Positions 1 through 13,042 of a stretch of 64,000 bases of DNA are shown here, piece by piece. Location: contig NZ_JACCDB010000001.1 in the NCBI RefSeq assembly GCF_013432195.1, forward strand, positions 62,001-126,000, given 5' to 3'. Source of the stretch: Tepidicella baoligensis (lineage in GTDB: Bacteria > Pseudomonadota > Gammaproteobacteria > Burkholderiales > Burkholderiaceae_C). The notes under the pieces were generated by a model that searched no databases, was not told the DNA's origin, and worked only from the letters and a program-made list of their open reading frames with translations. Made by a program: the position numbers and the translations under genes. Position 1 is the first letter of the stretch; every line of letters starts with the position of its first letter.

Positions 1-485
1 CCCGCTGCCAGCAGCGCTGCACCGTGCGACGGTGGCTGACCACACCGGCTACCGGTCTGGTGCTGCTACAGCTGGCCGAGACCTTGTGGCACATGACACC
101 CACCAGCGCCGACTTCACGCGGCGCGCAGCCCGGCAACGGCTGGCGCGCTGGCACCGCAAGCTGCACCGGCTGCTGACAGACCAATCCGGTGGCGCCATC
201 GACCTGGCGAGCCTGCATGAGGCCCGCTTGCTGGCCAAGCGATTGCGCTACGGCAGCGAAGCCCTGGCCAGCGCCATGGCACGCAAACACCAGCGTGAAA
301 CCGCGCGCTGGCTCGCCGAAGCCACCGAATGGCAAACCCGCATCGGGCAAGCCCGGGACGCCTGGCAAGCCGGGGCTTGCCTCGAGCAGGTCGGAGCCTC
401 GGAAAAACAGGTGTACTTCCTGCGGGGCATTGGAGCCTGCATGGACCGCCATGCCCAGGCCCTGGCGCGGCGCACCCCGTCCTAG
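1..485 (+). CDS. CHAD-domain protein, C-terminal part (cut by left edge)
   Basis: The reading frame is open from the left edge to a TAG stop at 483-485, so this is the 3' end of a larger gene. The visible part has the basic, histidine-rich helices of CHAD domains, with the typical run RLLAKRLRYGSEAL near the middle. CHAD domains bind polyphosphate-like polyanions and are often fused to CYTH triphosphatase domains; whether a CYTH part exists lies outside the window. The gene converges on the ABC permease gene ending at 501, with 15 nt between the two stops. I see no catalytic residues in this fragment, so its biochemical role stays open. Confidence 0.7.
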   Translation, partial: RCQQRCTVRRWLTTPATGLVLLQLAETLWHMTPTSADFTRRAARQRLARWHRKLHRLLTDQSGGAIDLASLHEARLLAKRLRYGSEALASAMARKHQRETARWLAEATEWQTRIGQARDAWQAGACLEQVGASEKQVYFLRGIGACMDRHAQALARRTPS

Positions 486-500
486 ACTGGATACGGCGGC

Positions 501-1352
501 TCAGCGCGTCAGCCAGCGCCGGGTCGTGTGGCTGGTGGCATCGACCAACGCCACCATCAGCAGCATGGCGGCCAGCACGGTGGCGGTTTTATCGATCTGG
601 AACAGCCCCATGTGGAAAGCCAACAGTTGACCCAGCCCTCCGGCGCCCACCACCCCGAGAATGGCGGCGGCGCGGATGTTGTTCTCCCAACGGTACAAGG
701 TGTAGCTCAGGAGTTGAGGCAAGACCTGGGGCAGTGTGGCATAGAGAAACACCCGCCCGTTGCCCACGCCCTGGATCCGCAGGGCGTCACCGGGGCCGGA
801 AGGGGCGTTCTCGATCGCTTCGGCAAAGAGCCGCCCCAGCACACCGGTGGTGTGCAAGGCCAGCGCCAGCGTACCGGCAAAAGGCCCCAGACCGGCTGAG
901 ATGAGCAGCAGGGCCGCCCACACCAGTTCGGGTATGGAGCGCAGCGCATTGAGCAGCCAGCGGGTGAGGCCCCGCGCCCAGGCGGCATCGCCCGCGTGCA
1001 GGCGGCTGCCCGGCAAGGCCAGCGCCAGCCCGCCGACGGCAGCGAGCACCGTGCCCAGCAAGGACATGGCCAGCGTTTCCCACGCGCCCACCGCCACTTT
1101 CTGCACGAAAGGCGCCGACAGATCGGGCGGGAAAAACTCGCCCACGAAACGGCCCATGCTGCGCAACGCATCCAGGGACAGGAATTCGGCCCACTGCAGG
1201 TCGAGTGACCAGAAACTGGCCACCACCAGCACCAGCACACCCAGGGTGAACCAGCAAGCCTTGCAACGCGCGTCCAACAGAGGCGGCGGCAGGCGGTAAG
1301 GTGGATTGGCGGCCTGGGGCCGGGTGGGTAGAGGATTCGGCGGCAGGGTCAT
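501..1352 (-). CDS. PhnE-type ABC permease, second copy (putative selenium importer)
   Basis: This 283-residue inner-membrane protein has about six hydrophobic segments and the binding-protein-dependent permease signature (the EAIENAP..GDALRIQG stretch and the ILGVVGAGGLGQLL loop) of PhnE/PtxC-type permeases. It should form half of the transmembrane channel. It is the last gene of a leftward operon: binding protein (start 3931), ATPase, permease 1, permease 2, with only 3 nt between the two permease genes. Many PhnE systems have one permease gene; two paralogues suggest a heterodimer. The family handles phosphonate, phosphite and related oxyanions. The neighbouring selD and SenB-type genes make a selenium oxyanion the more likely substrate here, which is inference from context. 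Confidence 0.82.
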   Translation of the reverse strand: MTLPPNPLPTRPQAANPPYRLPPPLLDARCKACWFTLGVLVLVVASFWSLDLQWAEFLSLDALRSMGRFVGEFFPPDLSAPFVQKVAVGAWETLAMSLLGTVLAAVGGLALALPGSRLHAGDAAWARGLTRWLLNALRSIPELVWAALLLISAGLGPFAGTLALALHTTGVLGRLFAEAIENAPSGPGDALRIQGVGNGRVFLYATLPQVLPQLLSYTLYRWENNIRAAAILGVVGAGGLGQLLAFHMGLFQIDKTATVLAAMLLMVALVDATSHTTRRWLTR

Positions 1353-1355
1353 GGT

Positions 1356-2207
1356 TCAGCTCAGGGCCTTTCTCAACCAACCACTCACCCGGTCGGCCAG
1401 TGCCACCAGCAGAATGAAGACGATCAGCAGGGTCGCCACCTCGCCGCCGTTGAACATTTTCATGGAATTGTCGAGTTGCTGGCCCAGCCCACCCGCGCCC
1501 ACAAACCCGAGCACCACCGATGAGCGGATGGCGCATTCCCAGCGGTAGACGGTGTAGCTGGTGAGTTCGGCGGCGTTGGTGGGCAACAGGCCATAGCAGA
1601 AAGCCTGCAGGCGGCCACTGCCATTGCGCAGCAGCGTTTCGGTGGCATGGGTTTCGCCGCTTTCCAAAATCTCGCCGTACACCTTGCCCAGCATGCCCCC
1701 GTAGGTGAGCGCGATGGCCAGCACACCGGCGGTGGGGCCCAGCCCCACCACGCGAACGAACACCAGCGCCCACACCAGCTCGGGGATGCTGCGCAGCACG
1801 ATCAGCAGCCAGCGCACCGCCTGCCGCAACCAGAATGGCCCACGCGCCATGCGGCCCGACAGGGCAGAAATGGACAGCACGCGGGTGTTGAGCAGGGTCA
1901 GCGGGATGGCCACCAACAACGCCAGGGTGACCCCGGCGGTGGCCATGGCCACGGTGCGCCAGGTTTCACGCACCACCATGGCCATGAATTCGGCGTCGTG
2001 GGCCAGCGGCCAGAAACTGCCGATGAAACGGGCCGTCACACGCAGGTTGTCGGGCTCCAGAAACACCCAGGGCCGGAATTCGGTGGCCACCAGCAACGGC
2101 CACATCAGCACGGCGGCAGCGCCCATCCAGAACAGCCGACCCAGCCACGCCGGATCCCGCGAGGGAGGTCGACGCAGGGCAGCAACGGAACGCGAGGACA
2201 GGCTCAT
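1356..2207 (-). CDS. PhnE-type ABC permease, first copy
   Basis: A 283-residue multi-spanning permease of the PhnE family, with the cytoplasmic loop EILESGETHATETLLRNG and the VLGFVGAGGLGQQL motif that contact the ATPase. I chose the ATG at 2207 because it makes an ATGA overlap with the stop of the upstream ATPase gene; two codons further upstream there is only a TTG. It is clearly paralogous to the next permease, sharing the LRSIPELVWA block and the glycine-rich loop, so the pair probably arose by duplication and builds one channel. Substrate as for the operon: oxyanion import, with selenium favoured by context. Confidence 0.82.
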   Translation of the reverse strand: MSLSSRSVAALRRPPSRDPAWLGRLFWMGAAAVLMWPLLVATEFRPWVFLEPDNLRVTARFIGSFWPLAHDAEFMAMVVRETWRTVAMATAGVTLALLVAIPLTLLNTRVLSISALSGRMARGPFWLRQAVRWLLIVLRSIPELVWALVFVRVVGLGPTAGVLAIALTYGGMLGKVYGEILESGETHATETLLRNGSGRLQAFCYGLLPTNAAELTSYTVYRWECAIRSSVVLGFVGAGGLGQQLDNSMKMFNGGEVATLLIVFILLVALADRVSGWLRKALS

Positions 2208-3034
2208 CGGCAATGCATGGTCACGGGGGCGGGCACCGTCGGTGCGGCCACAGGCGGGGGTACGTCGCCGCGCAGTTCGTGCTCGTACTGTTCGTACAGG
2301 CGTGCCAGACGCTCGCGCGTGACCTGCGACGACGGCAAGTCGAAAACCACGGCCCCTTCACGCATGCCGACGACGCGCGGAAAGTGGGCGAGCGCCATGT
2401 CCACCTGGTGCAACGTAGCCACCAGCGTGACCCCTCGGGTCCGGGCTTCATCGGTGAGGGTCTGCATCGCCTGGCGGGCACGGGCCGGATCCAGGGCCGA
2501 CAAGGGCTCATCCACGAGCCAGAAGCGGGCCGGTGCGAGCAGCGCCCGCGCCAACCCGACGCGCTGACGCTCGCCCCCCGACAACCGATCGACCCGTTCG
2601 AACAGCTTGTCGCCCAGGTCGAAACGGTCCAGGGCCTCGAATGCGGCCGGGATATCGCTCGGATAGAACAGCGAGCGGATGCTGGCCCACAGGCTCATCG
2701 CCGGCAGCCGCGCGGCGAGCACCGACGTCACCACCCGCTGGCGCGGCGGCAGCGGCGGCACCTGCGGGGCCAGGAACAAGGTACCGCGCAGGCGCTGCAG
2801 AGCGCGACGCGGCAGGCGCCAGGGTTCCTGCCCGTCCAGCCGAAAAAGCCCCTGCCGGGGCGGCAAGCCACAAGCCAGCACCTGCAGCAGGGTGGTCTTG
2901 CCGGCCCCGGAGGGGCCGATCACGGCCACCTGCTCGCCCGATGCCACCCGCAGACCAACCCGGCGCAAGGCCGGGGCGGTGCCCACGCGAGCGGCGGGGT
3001 GAACCGCCGTCAGGTCTTGCAGTTCGATGTTCAA
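2204..3034 (-). CDS. PhnC-type ABC transporter ATPase
   Basis: This 276-residue nucleotide-binding subunit has the Walker A motif GPSGAGKTT at residues 40-48, the ABC signature LSGGERQ at 151-157 and the Walker B stretch FWLVDEP at 171-177. It would drive import through the two PhnE-type permeases encoded just downstream. The start appears to be a TTG at 3034, since no ATG lies in frame nearby; an AAAGG about 9 nt upstream can serve as ribosome-binding site. It sits 18 nt after the binding-protein gene and overlaps the first permease gene by 4 nt. The fold and role are clear; the substrate is inferred from the neighbours. Confidence 0.88.
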   Translation of the reverse strand: MNIELQDLTAVHPAARVGTAPALRRVGLRVASGEQVAVIGPSGAGKTTLLQVLACGLPPRQGLFRLDGQEPWRLPRRALQRLRGTLFLAPQVPPLPPRQRVVTSVLAARLPAMSLWASIRSLFYPSDIPAAFEALDRFDLGDKLFERVDRLSGGERQRVGLARALLAPARFWLVDEPLSALDPARARQAMQTLTDEARTRGVTLVATLHQVDMALAHFPRVVGMREGAVVFDLPSSQVTRERLARLYEQYEHELRGDVPPPVAAPTVPAPVTMHCR

Positions 3035-3052
3035 ACGCGCAGACCTTTGGGA

Positions 3053-3931
3053 TCAGAGCAGACCAGCGCTGCGGGCAGCGGCTTCCAGCCCCTTGTAGTT
3101 TTCGGGCTGGGTCGGTACGTAGCGCGTGGCGCGGTTCAGGCGCAGGATTTCCGCATGCTCGGGGTTCGCCGGATCGAGCGCCAGCAGGGCATTGCGGATG
3201 CGTTGCTGCAGTTCGACCGGCATGTCGGCATGCACCGACCAGTTGTAATTGAAGAACGGGGGCGTGGTGTAGAACACATCGACTTCACGCGTGTCCACCT
3301 TGTTTTCCTGGACGAACTTGCGCCAGACCGTGATGTCGAGCGCGGCCGCATCGACCCGGCCGCTGACCACCGAGGCGATGGTGGCGTCGTGGGCGCCGCT
3401 GAAGGCCACGCGCCGGAAGTCGCGTTCGGGCTCGATACCGGCTTGCAACAGAAAGCTGCGCGGCATCAGATGGCCCGAGGTGCTGCTGGCCGAGCCGAAT
3501 GAGACCTGCTTACCCTTCAGGTCGGCCAGGGTCTTGATGCCCGAATCGGTCTTGGCAATGAACACCGACTGGAAACGCGTGTCCTCCTCGCGCTGCGCCA
3601 ACGGCACGATCTTGCCGCCCGAACGGCGATTGGCCTGCACATGGGTAAACCCCCCGAACCAGACGAGATCGACCCGCTTGTTGACCAGCGCCTCGACTGC
3701 GGCGGGGTAGTCGTTGACGGGGTTGAACTCCACCTTCATGCCGAGCTGGCGCTCCAGATACGAGGCCAGCGGCGTGAACTTGCGCACCTGCTCGGTGGCG
3801 GCCTCTTCAGGGATGGTGGTGACACGAAGAACGGTCTGCGCCTGCGCCCACCCGCTGACGCCCAGGGCCAGCGCCAGACCGGCCCCGATCAGGGTGCGGC
3901 GGCTTGCGGAATGCTTGATGAAAGAAAGCAT
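3053..3931 (-). CDS. PhnD-family periplasmic binding protein, putative selenium oxyanion receptor
   Basis: A 292-residue exported protein with an N-terminal signal sequence ending near GWAQA. The mature part follows the PhnD pattern: TTIPEEAATEQ, then PLASYLERQLGMKVEF, then DLVWFGGFTHVQA and LKGKQVSFGSASSTSGHLMPR. The ATG at 3931 is preceded by GGAG at a good distance; the frame stays open further upstream but that part does not look like protein. From memory, NCBI keeps a PhnD-like subfamily named as a putative selenate ABC transporter binding protein because it travels with selD and the SenB-type glycosyltransferase. This gene sits exactly in that setting, divergent from both. Phosphonate or phosphite binding remains the alternative. 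Confidence 0.8.
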   Translation of the reverse strand: MLSFIKHSASRRTLIGAGLALALGVSGWAQAQTVLRVTTIPEEAATEQVRKFTPLASYLERQLGMKVEFNPVNDYPAAVEALVNKRVDLVWFGGFTHVQANRRSGGKIVPLAQREEDTRFQSVFIAKTDSGIKTLADLKGKQVSFGSASSTSGHLMPRSFLLQAGIEPERDFRRVAFSGAHDATIASVVSGRVDAAALDITVWRKFVQENKVDTREVDVFYTTPPFFNYNWSVHADMPVELQQRIRNALLALDPANPEHAEILRLNRATRYVPTQPENYKGLEAAARSAGLL

Positions 3932-4197
3932 GAATACTCCGAAAAAGGAAACGGTGGAACTGATGAAGGGAATTCCGGGTGCGATTAAAACGCAAAACGC
4001 ATGGGCCCTGCGGCGACGGGGCAAGACTTGGCCCCTTGGCTTGGGGATCGCAGTACTTGACCTCGACCACATGCCCCACAAGGGCAGGCTCAATTCGGGG
4101 ACACTCAATTTGGGAACATCCATCACCTGCAGTGACCCCGCCAGCGCATCGGCATACGCGCGCAGCCACCGCAGGGTGGTCATCAGGTTCGGTCAGA
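3932..4197. promoter_or_regulatory. Divergent intergenic region between importer operon and senB-selD
   Basis: These 266 nt separate the starts of the leftward importer operon and the rightward senB-selD pair and must hold both promoters. The clearest structure is an imperfect tandem repeat: CTCAATTCGGGGACA at 4089-4103 is followed directly by CTCAATTTGGGAACA at 4104-4118 (13 of 15 positions equal). This could be a regulator's direct-repeat site. I find no convincing -35/-10 pair and no clear Pho-box array, which speaks mildly against ordinary phosphate control. Confidence 0.4.
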
Positions 4198-5232
4198 ATG
4201 TCCGTCATGGCTTTCCAAGCGCCCCCACCCTCCGTGTGCATCGTCACGCCAGCGTTGGCCGACGCGAACAACGGCAACTGGCAGACGGCACGCCGATGGG
4301 CGCGCATGCTCGGTTCAGTGTACCGGGTACGTCTGGTGCGTGAGTGGCCGGACAACGAGCGCTTGGCCTCGCAAGACGGCCTGATGCTGGCGTTGCACGC
4401 GCGGCGCTCGGCGGCATCGGTGGCGGCATGGGCGCAAAAGCACCCCGATCGACCGCTGGTGCTGACGCTCACCGGCACCGACCTGTACCGCGACATCGCG
4501 CACGACCCCCAGGCGCAGCACTCGCTGGCCGTGGCCGACCGCCTGGTCGTGCTGCAGGAAGCCGGGGCCGACCAGCTGCCGCCAGGGCTGCGCGACCGTT
4601 GCCGCGTGGTGTTCCAGTCCAGCACCACGCGCCAGGCGCTGCCCAAGACCTCCAGGCATCTGCGGGTGGTGGTGGTCGGCCACCTGCGTGAAGAAAAGTC
4701 GCCGCAAACGGTGTTCGACATCGCCCGCCGCCTGCGGCCGCAGGACGGCATCCGGATCGATCACCTGGGCCATGCCCTGGACCCCGCGCTGGGCGAGGAG
4801 GCCCAGGCCACGGCCCGGGCCTGCCCGCATTACCGCTGGCTCGGCGGTGTGCCCCATACCCAGGCGCGCGAGCGCATCCAGCGTGCCCATGTGCTGCTGC
4901 ACCCGAGCCGCATGGAAGGCGGGGCGCATGTGATCATGGAGGCCGTGACCAGCGGCACGGCCGTGCTGGCCTCGAACGTGCCGGGCAATGTGGGCATGCT
5001 GGGGTGCGATTACGCCGGCTTTTTCCCCTGGGGCGACGTGACCGCGGCCTGCACCCTGCTGCGCCAGTGCCGCGACAGCCTCGGCGAGCACATCCCCCCA
5101 CAGCCATCCCTGCTGCGCCATTTGCTTGCACAATGTCGTTCGAGAGCGCCCCTGTTTGCCCCTGCGGCAGAAGCCCGGGCCCTGCAGTCCGTGCTGGCTG
5201 AAGCCCTGTGTTGGAAACCCGTGGCGGTGTGA
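4198..5232 (+). CDS. senB: SenB-type selenosugar synthase (GT-B glycosyltransferase)
   Basis: About 344 residues. The N-terminus carries VCIVTPALADANNGNWQTA followed by RRWARML, the hallmark of the glycosyltransferase subfamily that co-occurs with selD (TIGR04348, as I recall). The C-terminal half has the GT4-type donor-site pattern LLHPSRMEGGAHVIMEAV and a later VPGNVGMLG. SenB couples selenophosphate with a UDP-sugar to make a selenosugar, the first dedicated step to selenoneine. The next gene is selD, which supplies selenophosphate, 43 nt downstream on the same strand. Two ATGs (4198 and 4207) are possible; neither has a strong ribosome-binding site. No senA (EgtB-like selenoneine synthase) is in the window, so the final product is not settled here. 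Confidence 0.78.
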   Translation: MSVMAFQAPPPSVCIVTPALADANNGNWQTARRWARMLGSVYRVRLVREWPDNERLASQDGLMLALHARRSAASVAAWAQKHPDRPLVLTLTGTDLYRDIAHDPQAQHSLAVADRLVVLQEAGADQLPPGLRDRCRVVFQSSTTRQALPKTSRHLRVVVVGHLREEKSPQTVFDIARRLRPQDGIRIDHLGHALDPALGEEAQATARACPHYRWLGGVPHTQARERIQRAHVLLHPSRMEGGAHVIMEAVTSGTAVLASNVPGNVGMLGCDYAGFFPWGDVTAACTLLRQCRDSLGEHIPPQPSLLRHLLAQCRSRAPLFAPAAEARALQSVLAEALCWKPVAV

Positions 5233-5275
5233 AATTCACTGCCCTCTTGAACGCACCTGTGAACGCCCCAAAACC

Positions 5276-6352
5276 ATGAATGCACCCACTTCCGCTGCCC
5301 AGGTCGCCGCGCCCCGCCTGACCAGCCTGTCCCACGGGGGCGGCTGTGGCTGCAAGATCGCCCCGGGTGTGCTGAGCGAAATCCTCAAGGGCACATCCGC
5401 GATGCCCATTCCGCCCCAGTTGCTGGTGGGCATCGAGACGGCGGATGACGCCGCCGTCTACCAGCTCAACGACGAGCAGGCGCTGATCGCGACGACCGAC
5501 TTTTTCATGCCCATCGTGGATGACCCCTTCGATTTCGGCCGCATCGCCGCCACCAACGCCATTAGCGACGTCTACGCCATGGGGGGCACGCCGATCATGG
5601 CGCTGGCGCTGGTGGGCATGCCGGTGAGCGTGCTGCCGGTCGAAACCATCCGCCAGATTCTGGAAGGCGGCCAGGCCATCTGCCGCGAGGCGGGCATCCC
5701 GATCGCGGGCGGCCACACCATCGACTCGGTGGAGCCCATCTACGGGCTGGTGGCCCTTGGGCTGGTGCACCCCAAGCGGGTCAAGCGCAATGCCGACGCC
5801 CGCGTGGGCGATCGCCTGGTGCTGGGCAAGCCGCTGGGGGTGGGGGTGCTGTCGGCCGCGCTCAAAAAAGACGCGCTGAGCCCCGAGGGCTACACGCAAA
5901 TGATCGCCCACACCACGAAACTCAACACCCCGGGCCCGGAACTGGCTGCGCTGGACGGTGTGCATGCCCTGACCGATGTGACCGGCTTTGGCCTGGCGGG
6001 CCATGCGCTGGAAATGGCGCGTGGGGCCAACGCCTGCATCCAGCTCGAGATGGACCGCATCCCCCTGATCGATGGGGTGCGCGAGCTGGCCAGCCGTGGC
6101 ATGGTAACGGGAGCCTCGGGTCGCAATTGGGCGGCCTATGGCCACGAAGCGGGCTTGGGACATGGCCGGGATGCCATCGATCAGGCGCTGCTGACCGACC
6201 CGCAGACCAGCGGCGGCTTGCTCGTGGCCTGTGCCCCCGAGGCGGTGGATGCGGTGCTGGCGGTGTTCCAACGACACGGCTTTGCAGCAGCGGCCGAGAT
6301 CGGAGAAATCACAGCGGCCAGCGCCGACGGCCGCCGTCTCCTGGTTCGCTGA
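5276..6352 (+). CDS. selD: Selenide, water dikinase (selenophosphate synthetase)
   Basis: A 358-residue SelD that makes selenophosphate, AMP and phosphate from selenide and ATP. The catalytic loop SHGGGCGCKIAP at residues 19-30 places Cys24 and Lys27 at the positions of Escherichia coli Cys17 and Lys20; the protein uses cysteine, not selenocysteine. The AIR-synthase-like fold is visible in DDAAVYQLNDEQALIATTDFF, in the ATNAISDVYAMGG block and in LTDPQTSGGLL. It lies directly downstream of the SenB-type gene and is called senC in described selenoneine clusters. Selenophosphate can also feed selenocysteine or selenouridine synthesis; no selA, selB or mnmH is seen here. Confidence 0.93.
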   Translation: MNAPTSAAQVAAPRLTSLSHGGGCGCKIAPGVLSEILKGTSAMPIPPQLLVGIETADDAAVYQLNDEQALIATTDFFMPIVDDPFDFGRIAATNAISDVYAMGGTPIMALALVGMPVSVLPVETIRQILEGGQAICREAGIPIAGGHTIDSVEPIYGLVALGLVHPKRVKRNADARVGDRLVLGKPLGVGVLSAALKKDALSPEGYTQMIAHTTKLNTPGPELAALDGVHALTDVTGFGLAGHALEMARGANACIQLEMDRIPLIDGVRELASRGMVTGASGRNWAAYGHEAGLGHGRDAIDQALLTDPQTSGGLLVACAPEAVDAVLAVFQRHGFAAAAEIGEITAASADGRRLLVR

Positions 6353-6362
6353 GTCACACTCG

Positions 6363-7064
6363 CTAGAAACGCCCGGTGAAGCGGTAGCGCGACGCCGGGT
6401 GCCACATCGACGCGAAAGACGCCACCTGGCCCCTGGAATGCGTCTGGCGGTGCAGCACCAGACAGGGGTGTTCCGGGTTCATGCCGAGCAACTCGGCCAT
6501 CTCCCGCGCCGGAATGCAGGCCTCGATCTCGAAGCTCACCCCTTGCAGCGGCGCCACCCGCATCAGATAAGCGTTGGGCGTTTGGGTGGCAAAGTCCTGC
6601 GCCAGGTAGTCGGGCGCCACCTCGGGATTGACGTAGCGGTCTTCCACCTGGATGGGCTGCCCGTTTTCGAAGTGGACCACCACGGAATGGAACAGCGGCG
6701 CACCCGGCGACAGGCCGAACCGGCGTGCCAGGGCATGGTTCGCCCGAACCCGCTCCAGCCGGTGCAATTCGCTGCGGTGTCGGTGCCCGCGTGCGGCGAT
6801 CTCGTCGGCGATGTTGCGGATCTCCACCAGCGTGGACTGGTACTTCTGCTGCGCCACGTACGTCCCTGAGCCCTGCACCCGCTCGACGATCTGCTCGTCG
6901 CTGAGCTCACGGATGGCCCGGTTCACCGTCATGCGCGAGACACCGAAGGCCCGCGCCAGCGCTTCCTCGCCCGGAATGGCGTCGCCCTCCTTCCAGACAC
7001 CGGCGTGGATCTGCGCCAGCACGTGCTCCTTGATCTGCTGATAGGCCGGTATCGAAGCGGACAT
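6363..7064 (-). CDS. hutC: HutC, GntR-family repressor of histidine utilisation
   Basis: A 233-residue regulator of the GntR/HutC subfamily. Residues 1-75 form the winged helix-turn-helix (EEALARAFGVSRMTVNRAIRELSDEQIVERVQGSGTYV, broken here by the usual turn). The rest is a UTRA-type effector domain (PLFHSVVVHFENG, QVEDRYVNPEVAPDY, and PCLVLHRQTHS near the end). HutC normally represses hut genes and is released by urocanate. It is transcribed away from the hut genes and shares a 126-nt control region with the first of them, where a perfect palindrome overlaps the promoter. The gene ends 10 nt from the convergent selD stop. Confidence 0.92.
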   Translation of the reverse strand: MSASIPAYQQIKEHVLAQIHAGVWKEGDAIPGEEALARAFGVSRMTVNRAIRELSDEQIVERVQGSGTYVAQQKYQSTLVEIRNIADEIAARGHRHRSELHRLERVRANHALARRFGLSPGAPLFHSVVVHFENGQPIQVEDRYVNPEVAPDYLAQDFATQTPNAYLMRVAPLQGVSFEIEACIPAREMAELLGMNPEHPCLVLHRQTHSRGQVASFASMWHPASRYRFTGRF

Positions 7065-7102
7065 ATACGGGTTTTCACGGAGGGTTTCGACGCTTCATTG
7101 TA

Positions 7103-7141
7103 TTGACGTCCAGAAAAGATCCGCTCGATAATGTATATACA
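7103..7141 (+). promoter_or_regulatory. hut promoter with HutC-like operator
   Basis: A sigma-70 type promoter is readable on the plus strand: TTGACG at 7103-7108, an 18-nt spacer and GATAAT at 7127-7132. The perfect palindrome TGTATATACA at 7132-7141 begins at the last base of the -10 box and covers the likely transcription start, an ideal place for a repressor. A related half-site, TTGTATAGAT, lies at 7164-7173. The TGTATATACA form fits GntR/HutC-type operators. The first gene starts at 7191 after a strong GAGGAGA ribosome-binding site. Confidence 0.65.
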
Positions 7142-7190
7142 ATTTTTCAATATTCAATTTGATTTGTATAGATTTTCGAGGAGACCACTC

Positions 7191-8540
7191 ATGAAAGACC
7201 AGTCCCCGGAATCGACACCCGTGCGCGGTAGCCGTGCCCTGGACCTCATCAAGCTCCTGCTGTTCAGCGGTGTGGGTGTATTTCTGTTCTTCGCCCAGAT
7301 CGAACTCGGCGGACGCAGCACCATTCCAGTGGACCATATCAGCAGCTACATCGTGCGTGAACAGCGCCTGTTGGCGGTGGTGTTCATCATGGCGCTCATG
7401 GTGTGGGGTGCGGTGCGACCCCTGCAGGATGGCTCCTGGCGGCGCAGCTCCGGTGCTTTGCTGTTCACCACCATCAAATGGGCGGGGCTGGCACTGGCCG
7501 TAGTGCACCTCGCCGACTTGACGCCGGACTGGGCCAACCAGCACGACATGCTGCCCTTCCTGTTCGAGCGGCTGGCCTTGTCGGTGGGCGTGCTGATTCC
7601 CATCGGTGCGCTGGCGCTGACGTTCTTGCTCGGCTTCGGTCTGCTGGAAATCATCGGTGTACTGTTGCAGCGCGTGATGCGCCCGCTGTTCCGCACGCCG
7701 GGGTATTCGGCCCTGGATGCGGTCGCCTCGTTCGTGGGCAGCTACTCCGTGGGCCTGTTGGTCACGAGCAAGATGTACGCGCAGGGCCGCTATTCGGTGC
7801 GAGACGCCGCGGTCATCGCCACCGGTTTCTCTACCGTCTCGGCCACCTTCATGGTCGTGGTGGCGCGCACCCTGGGCCTGATGGAGTACTGGACGTTCTA
7901 TTTCTGGGCCACGCTGCTGGTCACCTTCGCAGTCACCTCCATCACGGCCTACCTGCCCCCGATTTCGCGCCTGCCTCATCAGGATGTAGCCCCCGAAATC
8001 GCCAGCGAACGCAACCGCCTCAGTCGCGCGCTGGACGCTGGCATCGCCCGATACACCCACCGCGAACCGCTGCACCGCATGCTGTGGAGCAACCTGCTCG
8101 ACGGGCTGCGCATGTCGGCCACCGTGGTGGCCAGCATTCTGGCGGTGGGTTTTGCCGGCCTGTGCCTCGCCAAGTTCACACCCGTGTTCGAATGGATCGG
8201 TTTGCTGCTCAAGCCAGCCCTGATGCTGGCCGACGTGATGCTGGGCACCACCGGGGCGAGCGCCGCCAGCGGCGCCTTTGCCTCCGGTCTGGCCGAGATG
8301 TTCCTGCCCGCCATCCTGCTGAAAGAAGCCGAGTTCGCGGTGCGCGCCTTGGCCGCCATCGTGTCGGTGAGCATGGTGCTGTTCCTGTCGGGCTGCATCC
8401 CCTGCATCCTGGCGACCGGTATTCCGCTGCGCGTGTCCCACCTGTTGATCGTCTGGCTGTTGCGCACGGTGCTGAGCATCGTGCTGGGAGCGGCCGTCAT
8501 TGCAGTGGGTCTGTCCATCGGCTGGCTGCCCACGGCCTGA
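7191..8540 (+). CDS. YjiH-family (Gate domain) membrane protein, candidate histidine or urocanate transporter
   Basis: A 449-residue integral membrane protein with about ten hydrophobic segments. It belongs to the YjiH/nucleoside-recognition (Gate) family, recognisable from the motifs [19 protein letters not shown] and [20 protein letters not shown] and the repeat [22 protein letters not shown] in the second half. The ATG at 7191 has a GAGGAGA site 7 nt upstream. It is the first gene after the hut promoter and sits 34 nt before hutU, where other bacteria carry a histidine or urocanate permease. Uptake of a pathway substrate is therefore the most natural role, but the family's biochemistry is poorly established, so this is inference from context. 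Confidence 0.75.
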
Positions 8541-8574
8541 GAGTCTTTCTCCCCTCTTCCTACCAGGAGTCCCC

Positions 8575-10275
8575 ATGAATACCGGAACCGATCCCCGTAC
8601 CGATCCATCCCGCGTGATCCGCGCCCCGCGCGGCACCACACTGCATTGCAAGAACTGGCTGACCGAAGCCGCCTACCGGATGATCCAAAACAACCTGGAC
8701 CCCGAGGTCGCCGAGAACCCGCAATCCCTGGTGGTGTACGGCGGGATCGGCCGCGCGGCACGCGACTGGGCTTGCTTCGACCAGATCCTGGCCACGCTGA
8801 AGGAGCTCAACGACGACGAGTCGCTGCTGATCCAGTCGGGCAAGCCGGTGGGGGTGTTCAAGACCCACCCCAACGCCCCGCGCGTGCTGCTGGCGAACTC
8901 CAACCTGGTGCCCAAGTGGGCCACCTGGGAGCACTTCAACGAACTCGACCGCAAAGGCCTGTTCATGTATGGCCAGATGACCGCCGGCAGCTGGATCTAC
9001 ATCGGCAGCCAGGGCATTGTGCAGGGCACCTTCGAAACCTTCATGGAAGCCGGCCGCCAGCATTACGGGGGCGACCTGTCGGGCAAGTGGGTCCTGACTG
9101 CCGGTCTGGGTGGCATGGGTGGCGCGCAGCCTCTGGCCGCCACACTGGCCGGCGCCTGTTCGCTCAACATCGAGTGCCAGCAGAGCAGGATCGATTTCCG
9201 TCTGCGCACGCGCTACGTGGATCAGCAGGCGCGCGACATCGACCATGCCTTGGAGCTCATCAAAAAACACACCACACAGAAAGAGGCGGTGTCGATCGCG
9301 TTGCTGGGCAACGCGGCCGAGATATTGCCGGAACTGGTCAGGCGTGCCCGGGCCGGCGGCATGCGCCCGGACATCGTCACCGACCAGACCTCTGCCCACG
9401 ACCTCATCCATGGCTACCTGCCGGCCGGCTGGACGGTGGCGCAATGGAAGGCGGCGCAGCAAGACCCGTCGCAGCACGCTGCCCTGAAGGAGGCTGCCGC
9501 CAAGAGTTGCGCCGTGCACGTGCAAGCCATGCTCGATTTCCACGCCATGGGCGTGCCCACCGTGGACTACGGCAACAACATCCGCCAGGTGGCGTTCGAC
9601 CAGGGGGTCAAGAACGCCTTCGACTTCCCCGGCTTCGTGCCGGCCTACATCCGCCCGCTGTTCTGCGAAGGCAAGGGGCCGTTCCGTTGGGTCGCCCTTT
9701 CTGGCGATCCGCAAGACATCTACAAGACCGACGCCAAGATCAAGGAACTCTTCCCCGACAACCACCACACCCACCGCTGGCTGGACATGGCGCGCGAGCG
9801 CATAGCCTTCCAAGGCCTGCCCGCGCGCATCTGCTGGCTGGGCCTGGGCGAGCGCCATGTCGCCGGCCTGGCCTTCAACGAGATGGTGCGCAAAGGCGAG
9901 CTCAAGGCGCCCATCGTGATCGGCCGCGACCACCTCGACACCGGCTCGGTGGCCAGCCCCAACCGCGAAACCGAAGGCATGCGCGACGGCACCGACGCCG
10001 TCAGCGACTGGCCACTGCTCAACGCCCTGCTCAACACCGCCAGCGGCGCCACCTGGGTCAGCCTGCACCATGGCGGTGGTGTGGGCATGGGCTACTCCCA
10101 GCATGCAGGCATGGTCATCGTGGCCGACGGCACCGACGCCGCCGCCGAGCGCCTGGCGCGGGTGCTGGTCAACGACTGCGGATCGGGCGTGATGCGCCAC
10201 GCGGATGCAGGCTATGAGCTCGCGATCGAAACCGCGAAGAAACAGGGCTTGCACTTGCCGATGTTGCGTGCATGA
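8575..10275 (+). CDS. hutU: Urocanate hydratase
   Basis: A 566-residue cytoplasmic enzyme that converts urocanate to imidazolone propionate using tightly bound NAD+. Length and sequence match the family throughout: [30 protein letters not shown] at the start, the dinucleotide-binding region [18 protein letters not shown], the block [12 protein letters not shown], the motif [19 protein letters not shown], and [21 protein letters not shown] near the end. The ATG at 8575 follows AGGAG. Its stop overlaps the hutH start by 4 nt, indicating translational coupling. It catalyses step two of histidine breakdown in this cluster. Confidence 0.96.
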
Positions 10276-11825
10276 TGACCAACATGACGACACCCTTGCT
10301 GCTCCAGCCCGGCCAGATGACCCTGACCGACCTGCGCACCGTCTGGCTCGGCCCGGTGCATGCCACCCTGCCTGCCCAGGCTGGTGAGACCATGGCAGAG
10401 TCCAGCGCCGCCATTGAGGCCATCGTGGATCGAGGCAATGCGGCCTACGGCATCAACACCGGCTTTGGCAAACTGGCCAAGACGCGCATCCCGGACGAGC
10501 AACTGGAAGCCCTGCAACGCAACCTCATCCTCTCGCACTCGGTGGGGGTCGGCGAGCCCATGCGCGCGGCCACGGTGCGCCTGGTCATGGTCATGAAAGC
10601 CGCCAGCCTGGCGCGCGGCTATTCGGGCGTGCGCCCGGTGGTGGTGGACACGCTGCTCGCCGTGCTCAATGCCGGCATCGTGCCGCGCATTCCGGTCAAA
10701 GGTTCGGTGGGTGCTTCGGGCGACCTGGCGCCCCTGTCGCACATGACGTTGGCGCTCATGGGTGAAGGCGAAGCCTGGTATCAGGGCCAATGGCAACCGG
10801 CGGCCGAAGCCCTGCGCCGCGCGGGAATCGAGCCGCTGACGCTGGCGGCCAAGGAAGGGCTGGCGCTCATCAACGGCACCCAGGTATCGACCGCGCTGGC
10901 CCTACACGGCCTGTTCATGGCCGAACGCCTGCTGGAAGCCGGCACCGTCATCGGGGCCCTGTGCGTCGATGCCGCCAAGGGCAGCGATGCACCTTTCGAC
11001 CCGCGCATCCACGCCGTGCGGGGCCAACCAGGCCAGATCGCCCAAGCAGCCGTGACTCGAGCCCTGCTGCAGGGCAGCCAGATCCGCCTATCCCACCTGG
11101 ACAACGACGAGCGCGTACAGGACCCCTACAGCCTGCGCTGCCAACCCCAGGTCATGGGTGCCTGCCGCGACCTCATTGTCCAGGCCGCACGCACACTGCT
11201 GATCGAGGCCAACGCCGTGACCGACAACCCGCTGGTGTTCACCGACACCGGTGACGTGCTCTCGGGCGGCAACTTCCACGCCGAGCCCGTGGCGTTTGCA
11301 GCCGACACGCTGGCCCTGGCCATCAGCGAAATCGGCGCGATTTCGGAGCGGCGCATCGCGCTGTTGATCGACAGCACGCTCTCGGGCCTGCCGCCCTTCC
11401 TGGTGGACAACCCGGGGCTGAACAGCGGCTTCATGATCGCCCACGTCACCGCCGCCGCGTTGGCCTCGGAAAACAAGTCCCACGCCCACCCGGCGAGTGT
11501 GGACAGCCTGCCCACCAGCGCCAACCAGGAGGACCACGTGAGCATGGCAACCTACGCCGGTCGCCGCCTGGCCGAGATGGCCGACAACACCGCCACCATC
11601 CTGGGCATCGAGTGGCTGGCTGCGGCGCAAGGGGTGGACTTCCACCGCCCTCTGCAGACTTCGCCTCGCCTGCAAAAGGCCCAAGCCACCTTGCGTGCGC
11701 AAGTGCCGTTTTACGAACGCGACCGCCTCTTCGCTCCCGACATCGAAGCCGCCAAGGCCCTGGTACTGGCCGGGCAGGCCGCGCACGGCAATGCCGATGT
11801 GCTGAGTACGCTGTGGACGGGCTGA
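10272..11825 (+). CDS. hutH: Histidine ammonia-lyase
   Basis: A 517-residue enzyme that deaminates L-histidine to trans-urocanate. The self-cyclising Ala148-Ser149-Gly150 that forms the MIO electrophile is present in the stretch [16 protein letters not shown]. Other family marks are [11 protein letters not shown] at 59-69 and the later [14 protein letters not shown]. The gene starts with tandem ATGs at 10272 and 10275; the first gives the ATGA overlap with hutU. hutI follows after 2 nt. It catalyses the first and committed step, so its expression under HutC control sets entry into the pathway. Confidence 0.97.
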
Positions 11826-11827
11826 GC

Positions 11828-13042
11828 ATGCACCAGAAACCGATCCGGCGGCTGTGGCGTCAAGCCCGACTGGCCACCCTCACCGGCACCGATTGGGGCC
11901 TGCTGGAACACGGCGCATTGCTCACCGAGGACGAGCGCATCGCCTGGGTAGGCCCCGTGGCCGATCTCCCGTCGGATCTGAGCGTGGACGAAGAACACGA
12001 TCTGGGCGGCGGCCTGCTCACGCCCGGCCTGGTCGATTGCCACACCCACCTGGTGTATGGCGGGCGCCGGGCCGACGAGGCCGAGCTGCGCCTGAATGGC
12101 GTCAGTTACGAGCAGATCGCCCGGGCGGGCGGTGGCATCCGCTCCACGGTGGCGGCCACCCGCGCGGCCAGTGAGGAGGAATTGCTGGCACAGGCCGTGC
12201 GCCGTACGCAGGTGCTCAGACAGCAGGGCGTGACCACGCTGGAGGTGAAATCCGGGTATGGGCTGTCGCTGGAGGCCGAGGCGCGCTGCCTGCGCGTGGC
12301 GCGGCGCCTGGGGAACGAAACGGGCCTGTCGGTGCGCACCACCTTTCTGGGGGCGCATGCCCTGCCTCCCGAATTCGAGGGCCGGCCGGACGACTACATC
12401 GATGCCGTGTGCACCTGGCTGCCCACCCTGCACGCCCAGGGACTGGTGGACGCGGTCGACGCCTTCTGCGAGACCATCGGCTTCACCCCCGCACAAACCC
12501 GCCAGGTGTTTGAAGCGGCACGGTCCTTGGGGCTGCCGGTCAAACTCCATGCGGAGCAGTTGTCAGACCAGGGCGGCGCGGCGCTCGCCGCCTCCTTCGG
12601 CGCGCTCTCGTGCGACCACCTGGAGCACCTGAGCCCGGAAGGCATTGCCGCCATGAAAGCCGCCGGCACCGTGGCGGTGCTGTTGCCCGGGGCGTTTTAC
12701 ATGCTGCGCGAAACGAAGTTGCCCCCGGTGGCCGCGCTGCGCGAGGCCGGCGTGCCCATGGCTGTGTCCACCGACCACAACCCCGGCACCTCACCCGCGT
12801 TGTCGCTGCCGCTCATGGCCCACATGGCCTGCAGCTTCTTCCGCCTCACCCCACTGGAAGCCGTGCGCGGCATCACGGTGCATGCCGCGCGCGCACTGGG
12901 TTTGCACGACCGGGGCACCCTCGCCCCCGGCCAGCGCGCCGACCTCGCCCTGTGGGACCTGGAACACCCCAACGAACTCACCTACTGGTTTGGTCACACA
13001 CCCTGCCGCTGCGTGGTGGTGGGTGGCGAGGAATGCTCATGA
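11828..13042 (+). CDS. hutI: Imidazolonepropionase
   Basis: A 404-residue metal-dependent amidohydrolase that opens the imidazolone ring to give N-formimidoyl-L-glutamate. The metal ligands expected for the fold are visible: [15 protein letters not shown] near residue 70, the KLHAEQLSD block in the middle, CDHLEHLS, and [11 protein letters not shown] took the ATG at 11828, 2 nt after the hutH stop; the frame is open further upstream but overlaps hutH. The 3' end overlaps hutG by 4 nt. Codon use and GC content match the neighbours. Confidence 0.95.

Follow-up and report, generated by a model that had tools for sequence, protein, structure and literature searches.

A PhnD1-type transporter divergent from senB and selD in Tepidicella baoligensis is a probable importer of a selenium oxyanion

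Within a 64,000-nt stretch of the Tepidicella baoligensis genome (positions 62,001 to 126,000 of contig NZ_JACCDB010000001.1; hereafter ‘the window’), four minus-strand genes (501–3931) of the PhnD/C/E/E type lie divergently from the selenosugar synthase gene senB and the selenophosphate synthetase gene selD (4198–6352, plus strand). We conclude that these four genes probably encode an ATP-binding cassette (ABC) system that imports a selenium oxyanion; selenite (HSeO3-/SeO3 2-) is the likeliest candidate. This reading draws on the family score of the receptor, synteny, gene co-occurrence and a binding pocket of the PhnD1 kind.

All six genes are present with open reading frames, in the arrangement described in an initial annotation of the window. 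The periplasmic receptor of the TIGR04553/PhnD1 type (3053–3931, minus strand) scores 351.3 bits against TIGR04553 (cut-off 250), a family-model search that bears out its initial placement in a putative selenate-binding subfamily. It is followed by an ATPase (2204–3034, minus) with a Walker A motif (GPSGAGKT) and an LSGGE signature, which we name PhnC-like because its TIGR02315 score of 188.8 bits is under the cut-off of 266.1 (PF00005, 84.9 bits). The first permease, PhnE1 (1356–2213, minus; start possibly the ATG at 2207), reaches 195.3 bits for TIGR01097, below the cut-off of 216.7, and 50.6 bits for PF00528; the second, PhnE2 (501–1352, minus), passes TIGR01097 with 262.2 bits. Across a 266-bp intergenic stretch between the divergent operons (3932–4197), the glycosyltransferase gene on the plus strand (4198, or 4207, to 5232) is indeed senB, its product scoring 431.2 bits for TIGR04348 (cut-off 300) and carrying the motifs NNGNWQTARRW, EGGAHV and REEKS, with the catalytic lysine equated to K158 of Variovorax paradoxus via the motif rather than an alignment. 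SelD (5276–6352, plus; NF002098, 547 bits, cut-off 299) retains an intact GGGCGCK motif. These scans were run on longer open frames (receptor from 4183, senB from 3979, selD from 5126), from which the likely starts differ. No Rfam match was found in positions 1–8000, and no sigma-70-like site in 3900–4260.

A plain annotation had been expected to call the transporter a phosphonate importer. NCBIfam already gives ‘putative selenate’, and two annotated plasmid matches are split, one labelled selenate and one phosphonate. Against TIGR03431, the model of the PhnD linked to carbon–phosphorus (C–P) lyase, the receptor stays at 174.1 bits, under the cut-off of 261. Among solved structures, both its sequence and its fold (AlphaFold2 model, predicted local distance difference test score 91.9) are nearest to 7S6G, PhnD1 of Synechococcus MITS9220 (fold E 1.6e-36). 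Since the PhnD1 chains 7S6G (337 bits) and 5LQ5 (Prochlorococcus MIT9301; 302 bits) themselves exceed the TIGR04553 cut-off, the ‘selenate’ family has structurally solved members.

To place the window among its relatives, we surveyed 250 genomes of the order Burkholderiales, in which TIGR04553 was over cut-off in 56, SenB in 70 and SelD in 179. Ten of the 56 receptors, spread over six families, have selD or senB at a distance of 10 kb or less, compared with none of the 93 sub-cut-off PhnD paralogues among the matches listed, a set that leaves out a truncated TIGR04553 family member (G104:C152); the SelD distances are lower bounds, as the SelD matches listed cover fewer than all 179 genomes. 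Gene calls in flanks of ~8–10 kb return the identical 10/56. One such locus (L110) unites the importer with egtD, senA, senB and selD; in another (L072), senB faces a SenA/EgtB-like gene (379 bits), selD, the importer and egtD, which share one strand; a third (L123) combines the importer, egtD, a SenA/EgtB-like gene (359 bits) and selD, both SenA/EgtB-like genes falling under the SenA cut-off of 420 bits. In L080, the importer is accompanied by selD and mnmH. Labels for egtD, selD and mnmH in linked loci derive from BLAST clustering with representatives scanned. On a tree of 69 receptors, picked to include every linked receptor and built without outgroups, proximity to selenium genes (19 rows) has to change state 11 times, so the linkage did not descend as a single block.

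Within the order, SenB was found in 30 of 56 receptor genomes versus 40 of 194 others. When labels were shuffled within families, a weak signal stayed (30 observed versus 25.8 expected, p 0.022). PhnJ showed no such pattern (5/56 versus 17/194 genomes), that is, no association with C–P lyase.

Linkage also recurs far outside this order. A genome scan with PhnD1, limited to the best 80 of at least 574 loci, placed selD and/or mnmH near phnD1 in nine of the 80 (tblastn). Both genes are near phnD1 in six cyanobacterial loci (L200, L229, L235, L236, L238, L239); in a further cyanobacterial locus (L226) mnmH is directly downstream of the importer operon, in Moorena bouillonii (L262) a SelD fusion is divergent from phnD1, and in a Chloroflexota metagenome-assembled genome (MAG; L255) selD is divergent from the receptor. 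Gene labels of L226, L236, L255 and L262 were confirmed with NCBIfam. Among genomes behind the phnD1 loci, mnmH was over cut-off in 43 of 50 (50 of the 80 examined). In a survey of 291 cyanobacterial genomes, 115 had TIGR04553 over cut-off, and mnmH occurred in 111 of these versus 41 of the 176 others (Fisher 1.7e-39, shared ancestry not corrected for). Here, mnmH was counted at E < 1e-90 (152 genomes; unfiltered tally 155), and of the four receptor genomes short of this threshold, a strong but partial match is seen in three and no match in the fourth, G555. Receptor and mnmH share a contig in 49 cyanobacterial genomes, in four of which they are at most 10 kb apart. The initial annotation had tied a selenium importer to selenoneine genes; the selenium part of that claim recurs outside the window, yet its selenoneine part is too narrow, and because relatives also sit by selD and mnmH, we read the link as one to selenium in general.

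As a separate observation, the SelD fusion at L236:5480-7696, beside mnmH and phnD1, matches TIGR04369 (‘fusion_not_SelD’) with 862 bits, L236 being the one locus scanned among the six with both genes; the ‘not SelD’ of that name looks doubtful.

Several results weigh against a selenium importer. The conserved neighbourhood anticipated for the receptor holds for the ten order receptors above, whereas 46 of the 56 have no selD, senB or mnmH in their flanks, and the same is true of 71 of the 80 phnD1 loci (some contigs being short in both sets). The excess of SelD in receptor genomes (50/56 versus 129/194 others) disappears when labels are shuffled within families (50 observed versus 49.5 expected), for which reason we do not use it as support; six of the 56 TIGR04553 genomes have no SelD over cut-off. 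In the set of 50 genomes, mnmH is not over cut-off in seven, one of them a Propionibacteriales MAG (L248) whose locus lacks selD, and the cyanobacterial table, uncorrected for phylogeny, contains 41 genomes with mnmH and no receptor. One TIGR04553 member (L100, 280 bits) has a divergent pocket. With respect to published work, P. putida BIRD-1 has a receptor labelled ‘phosphonate/selenate’, a candidate member of TIGR04553, whose abundance rises from 0.309 to 0.959 % in phosphate-deplete medium, according to PMC9426549. We found no report of selenium binding or uptake by TIGR04553/PhnD1 receptors in the open-licence literature. The measured ligands of PhnD1, given below, also weigh against it.

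The predicted pocket of the window receptor comprises E43, Y75, F120, S150-T151-S152, H181, D199, N228 and a capping Y229. PhnD1 residues Tyr46, STS126-128, His158 and the cap Tyr206 are matched by Y75, STS150-152, H181 and Y229, whereas Asp13, Asn176 and Asp205 are not kept (E43, D199, N228). In an alignment of 70 rows (69 family receptors plus PtxB), the first shell of 5LQ5 (I11, D13, Y46, F90, S126-T127-S128, H158, N176, D205, Y206, W208) is identical in 51, including PhnD1 and 13 selenium-linked receptors. The three changes D13→E, N176→D and D205→N are common to the window receptor and ten relatives, and the available text of PMC10284923 describes the Asp-to-Asn change in some cyanobacteria too.

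Selenite presents three oxygens and a lone pair at the fourth position, where selenate has a fourth oxygen. Since the pocket of PhnD1 is suited to an anion with three oxygens below a capping tyrosine, geometry and chemistry make selenite the more likely substrate. We consider selenate, the substrate in the NCBIfam name (‘putative selenate’), an unlikely one, even if the asparagine of the window clade (N228) in place of the PhnD1 acceptor aspartate could suit a fully ionised oxyanion: that aspartate is kept in 14 of the 19 selenium-linked receptors, and far more abundant sulfate would compete with selenate. In addition, the Kd ratios (Kd, dissociation constant) of PhnD1 show that four-oxygen phosphate is bound ~6- to 3600-fold less tightly than three-oxygen phosphite, on the values in the available parts of PMC5700983 and PMC10284923. 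In the same sources, two-oxygen hypophosphite is not bound by Synechococcus PhnD1 proteins, and the tyrosine cap is reported to accept H at the fourth position in preference to OH or CH3.

These two papers, here taken from the parts available, also carry the case for an importer of phosphite or phosphate, serving medium-affinity phosphate uptake as in the proposal for picocyanobacteria, next to which the selenium genes would be incidental. The phosphite Kd of PhnD1 spans 0.051–4.3 µM: Prochlorococcus PhnD1 yields 0.051 µM by microscale thermophoresis and 0.12 µM by isothermal titration calorimetry (PMC5700983), and four Synechococcus proteins bind phosphite at 0.67–4.3 µM (PMC10284923). Phosphate (7.4–182 µM) and, in most cases, methylphosphonate are bound less tightly (PMC5700983, PMC10284923). 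The initial annotation had held that tight phosphite binding with no binding of selenium oxyanions would speak against its reading; the phosphite half holds for the Prochlorococcus protein, a TIGR04553 member, but the string ‘selen’ is absent from the main texts of both papers (supplements were outside this check). Two further points favour this explanation: 51 of the 70 rows share their first shell with the PhnD1 structures that contain phosphite or phosphate, and the authors of PMC10284923 conclude that the transporter is a constitutive phosphate importer. Yet it leaves unexplained the linkage to selD, senB and mnmH in Burkholderiales, cyanobacteria and a Chloroflexota MAG, as well as the distribution of mnmH across cyanobacteria, and C–P lyase is not associated. 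Moreover, PhnD1 biology fits a selenium role: enzymes for phosphite and phosphonate are absent from most picocyanobacteria, Synechococcus WH8102 and MITS9220 do not grow on phosphite or phosphonate, phnD1 is not induced under phosphorus starvation (all PMC10284923), and growth on phosphite is reported in strains with a separate PtxABCD system (PMC5700983, PMC10284923). On balance, we regard phosphite or phosphate import as improbable and keep to a selenium oxyanion. A phosphonate importer is not favoured either: the T. baoligensis genome contains no detected PhnJ, C–P lyase shows no association in the order, and the TIGR03431 score is under cut-off (PtxD and PhnX/PhnZ were not searched for).

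What would the cell do with the imported selenium? The initial annotation had pointed to selenoneine biosynthesis, a product at odds with the gene content. The T. baoligensis genome (2.87 Mb, completeness 100 %) contains no match to the FGE-sulfatase domain PF03781 and none to the SenA model NF041186, so selenoneine is not makeable via the known route, and we reject it as the end product for this genome. No EgtD-cluster gene was found among the gene calls of the 19.5 kb surrounding the module, no genome-wide search for EgtD having been made. MnmH is present (TIGR03167, 354.4 bits, G000:C43), which together with SelD gives the selenouridine trait; SelA (TIGR00474), the marker of the selenocysteine trait, has no match in the genome. 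With MnmH present and SelA and SenA absent, the apparent uses of selenium here are selenouridine in tRNA and a selenosugar.

A selenoneine module with an importer of its own is therefore the least plausible of the explanations we weighed, and very improbable. It would account for loci in which egtD, senA, senB and selD lie with the importer (L110 and L090) or do so with a SenA/EgtB-like gene (L072), but not for the missing SenA and FGE domain, for importers paired with selD and mnmH (L080, cyanobacteria), or for the absence of SenB over cut-off from 26 of the 56 order genomes with the importer. The same-family relative L090 reads importer, egtD, further genes, senA (461 bits), senB and selD, and the window looks like this arrangement minus egtD and senA. 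A 36-codon stretch at 4070–4177 on the minus strand is akin to the SenA N terminus and sits at the expected place and strand. The idea of a senA relic between receptor and senB was nonetheless dropped, as 293 of 1000 shuffles score higher.

SenB without SenA is not confined to T. baoligensis. Counted by eye, the 70 SenB-positive genomes of the order comprise 57 with a strong SenA-model match (E < 1e-90; SenA or EgtB), five with weaker ones (E ~1e-46 to 1e-49), by inference OvoA-like, and eight, T. baoligensis among them, with E > 1e-25 or no match. SenB without SenA here points to a selenosugar as end product or as precursor of another selenometabolite. No partner gene common to SenB was found in genomes lacking SenA. 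One genome that has SenB but no match of SenA strength encodes, ~10 bp upstream of senB and in the same orientation, a methyltransferase (L144:7901-8500; TehB match, 44 bits) that could methylate a selenosugar or selenite. In two other genomes without SenA, a SPOUT methyltransferase and an HlyD/ABC/MacB-type exporter operon follow senB (L131:5016-8695, by Pfam scan; L143:568-5137, by clustering only).

Taken together, the receptor would catch the oxyanion in the periplasm, and the two permeases and the ATPase would bring it into the cell, where cellular reductants may turn it into selenide. SelD would then activate selenide to selenophosphate, the predicted users of which are SenB, for a selenosugar without the following SenA step, and MnmH, for 2-selenouridine in tRNA. 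We are evenly divided over a wider proposal, namely that the conserved PhnDCE (PhnD1) of Prochlorococcus and Synechococcus, described as a paradox since phosphite is of no use to most of these cells, is a selenite importer feeding tRNA selenouridine, and that the window transporter is a branch with a re-tuned pocket that also feeds a selenosugar made without selenoneine. If true, prokaryotes would have their first known family of dedicated selenium importers, and PhnD1 would bind phosphite because it mimics selenite. The proposal would further account for why marine picocyanobacteria retain a ‘phosphite’ importer that serves no phosphorus nutrition in most of them, and tie ocean selenium to tRNA modification.

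Reviews from 2022 and 2026 state that a high-affinity system for selenium transport has yet to be identified in prokaryotes (PMC9312934, PMC13188914), and according to a 2024 study a dedicated selenium transporter is not known from any organism (PMC11097638). A possible selenium link of the receptor family is already implied by the NCBIfam name; a test of selenium substrates for TIGR04553 was not found in the open-licence literature. As far as that literature shows, the inclusion of PhnD1, the cyanobacterial mnmH/selD linkage, the shared pocket and the prediction of selenite are new. With solved structures and purified proteins at hand, the receptor family is directly testable with selenite.

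Downstream of selD, the window continues with hutC and further hut genes for histidine degradation (6363–13042). Selenoneine is a histidine derivative, and without SenA the adjacency looks coincidental; because a gene labelled hutC is in none of the nine other linked loci compared by neighbourhood, we treat the hut neighbour as chance. Elsewhere in the T. baoligensis genome there is a second PF12974 receptor (G000:C12:282502-283248, L002; 142 bits). Some SelD matches in the order survey carry one in-frame TGA, as for selenocysteine-containing SelD (e.g., G005, G046, G055, G090, G131, G144, G169, G181 and G233). A 4.94-Mb record of Aeromonas caviae (L267, NZ_AP026896.1), filed as a ‘plasmid’ but looking like a mislabelled chromosome, encodes a 61 % identical receptor with its own PhnC/E/E, and has no selD, senB or mnmH match within 8 kb.

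Compared with known systems, the module shares SenB and SelD (SenC) with senABC of Variovorax paradoxus, including the EGGAHV motif as given in the available text of PMC10891094, and differs from it in that the genome has no SenA. The receptors PtxB, HtxB, E. coli PhnD, ArrX and AioX belong to the same fold family and are more distant; PtxB of P. stutzeri has a tyrosine in place of Phe90 and a glutamine at the Asp205 site. The window receptor is over the cut-off of TIGR04553 (ABC_peri_selen), a hypothetical equivalog family whose substrate is putative. Closest is picocyanobacterial PhnD1 (5LQ5, 5LQ8, 7S6G), with the published ligands phosphite, phosphate and methylphosphonate: 5LQ5 and 7S6G pass the same model, and the Tyr, Phe, STS, His and capping Tyr are those of the window receptor, whereas the window clade is set apart by its substitutions at positions 13, 176 and 205 (5LQ5 numbering).

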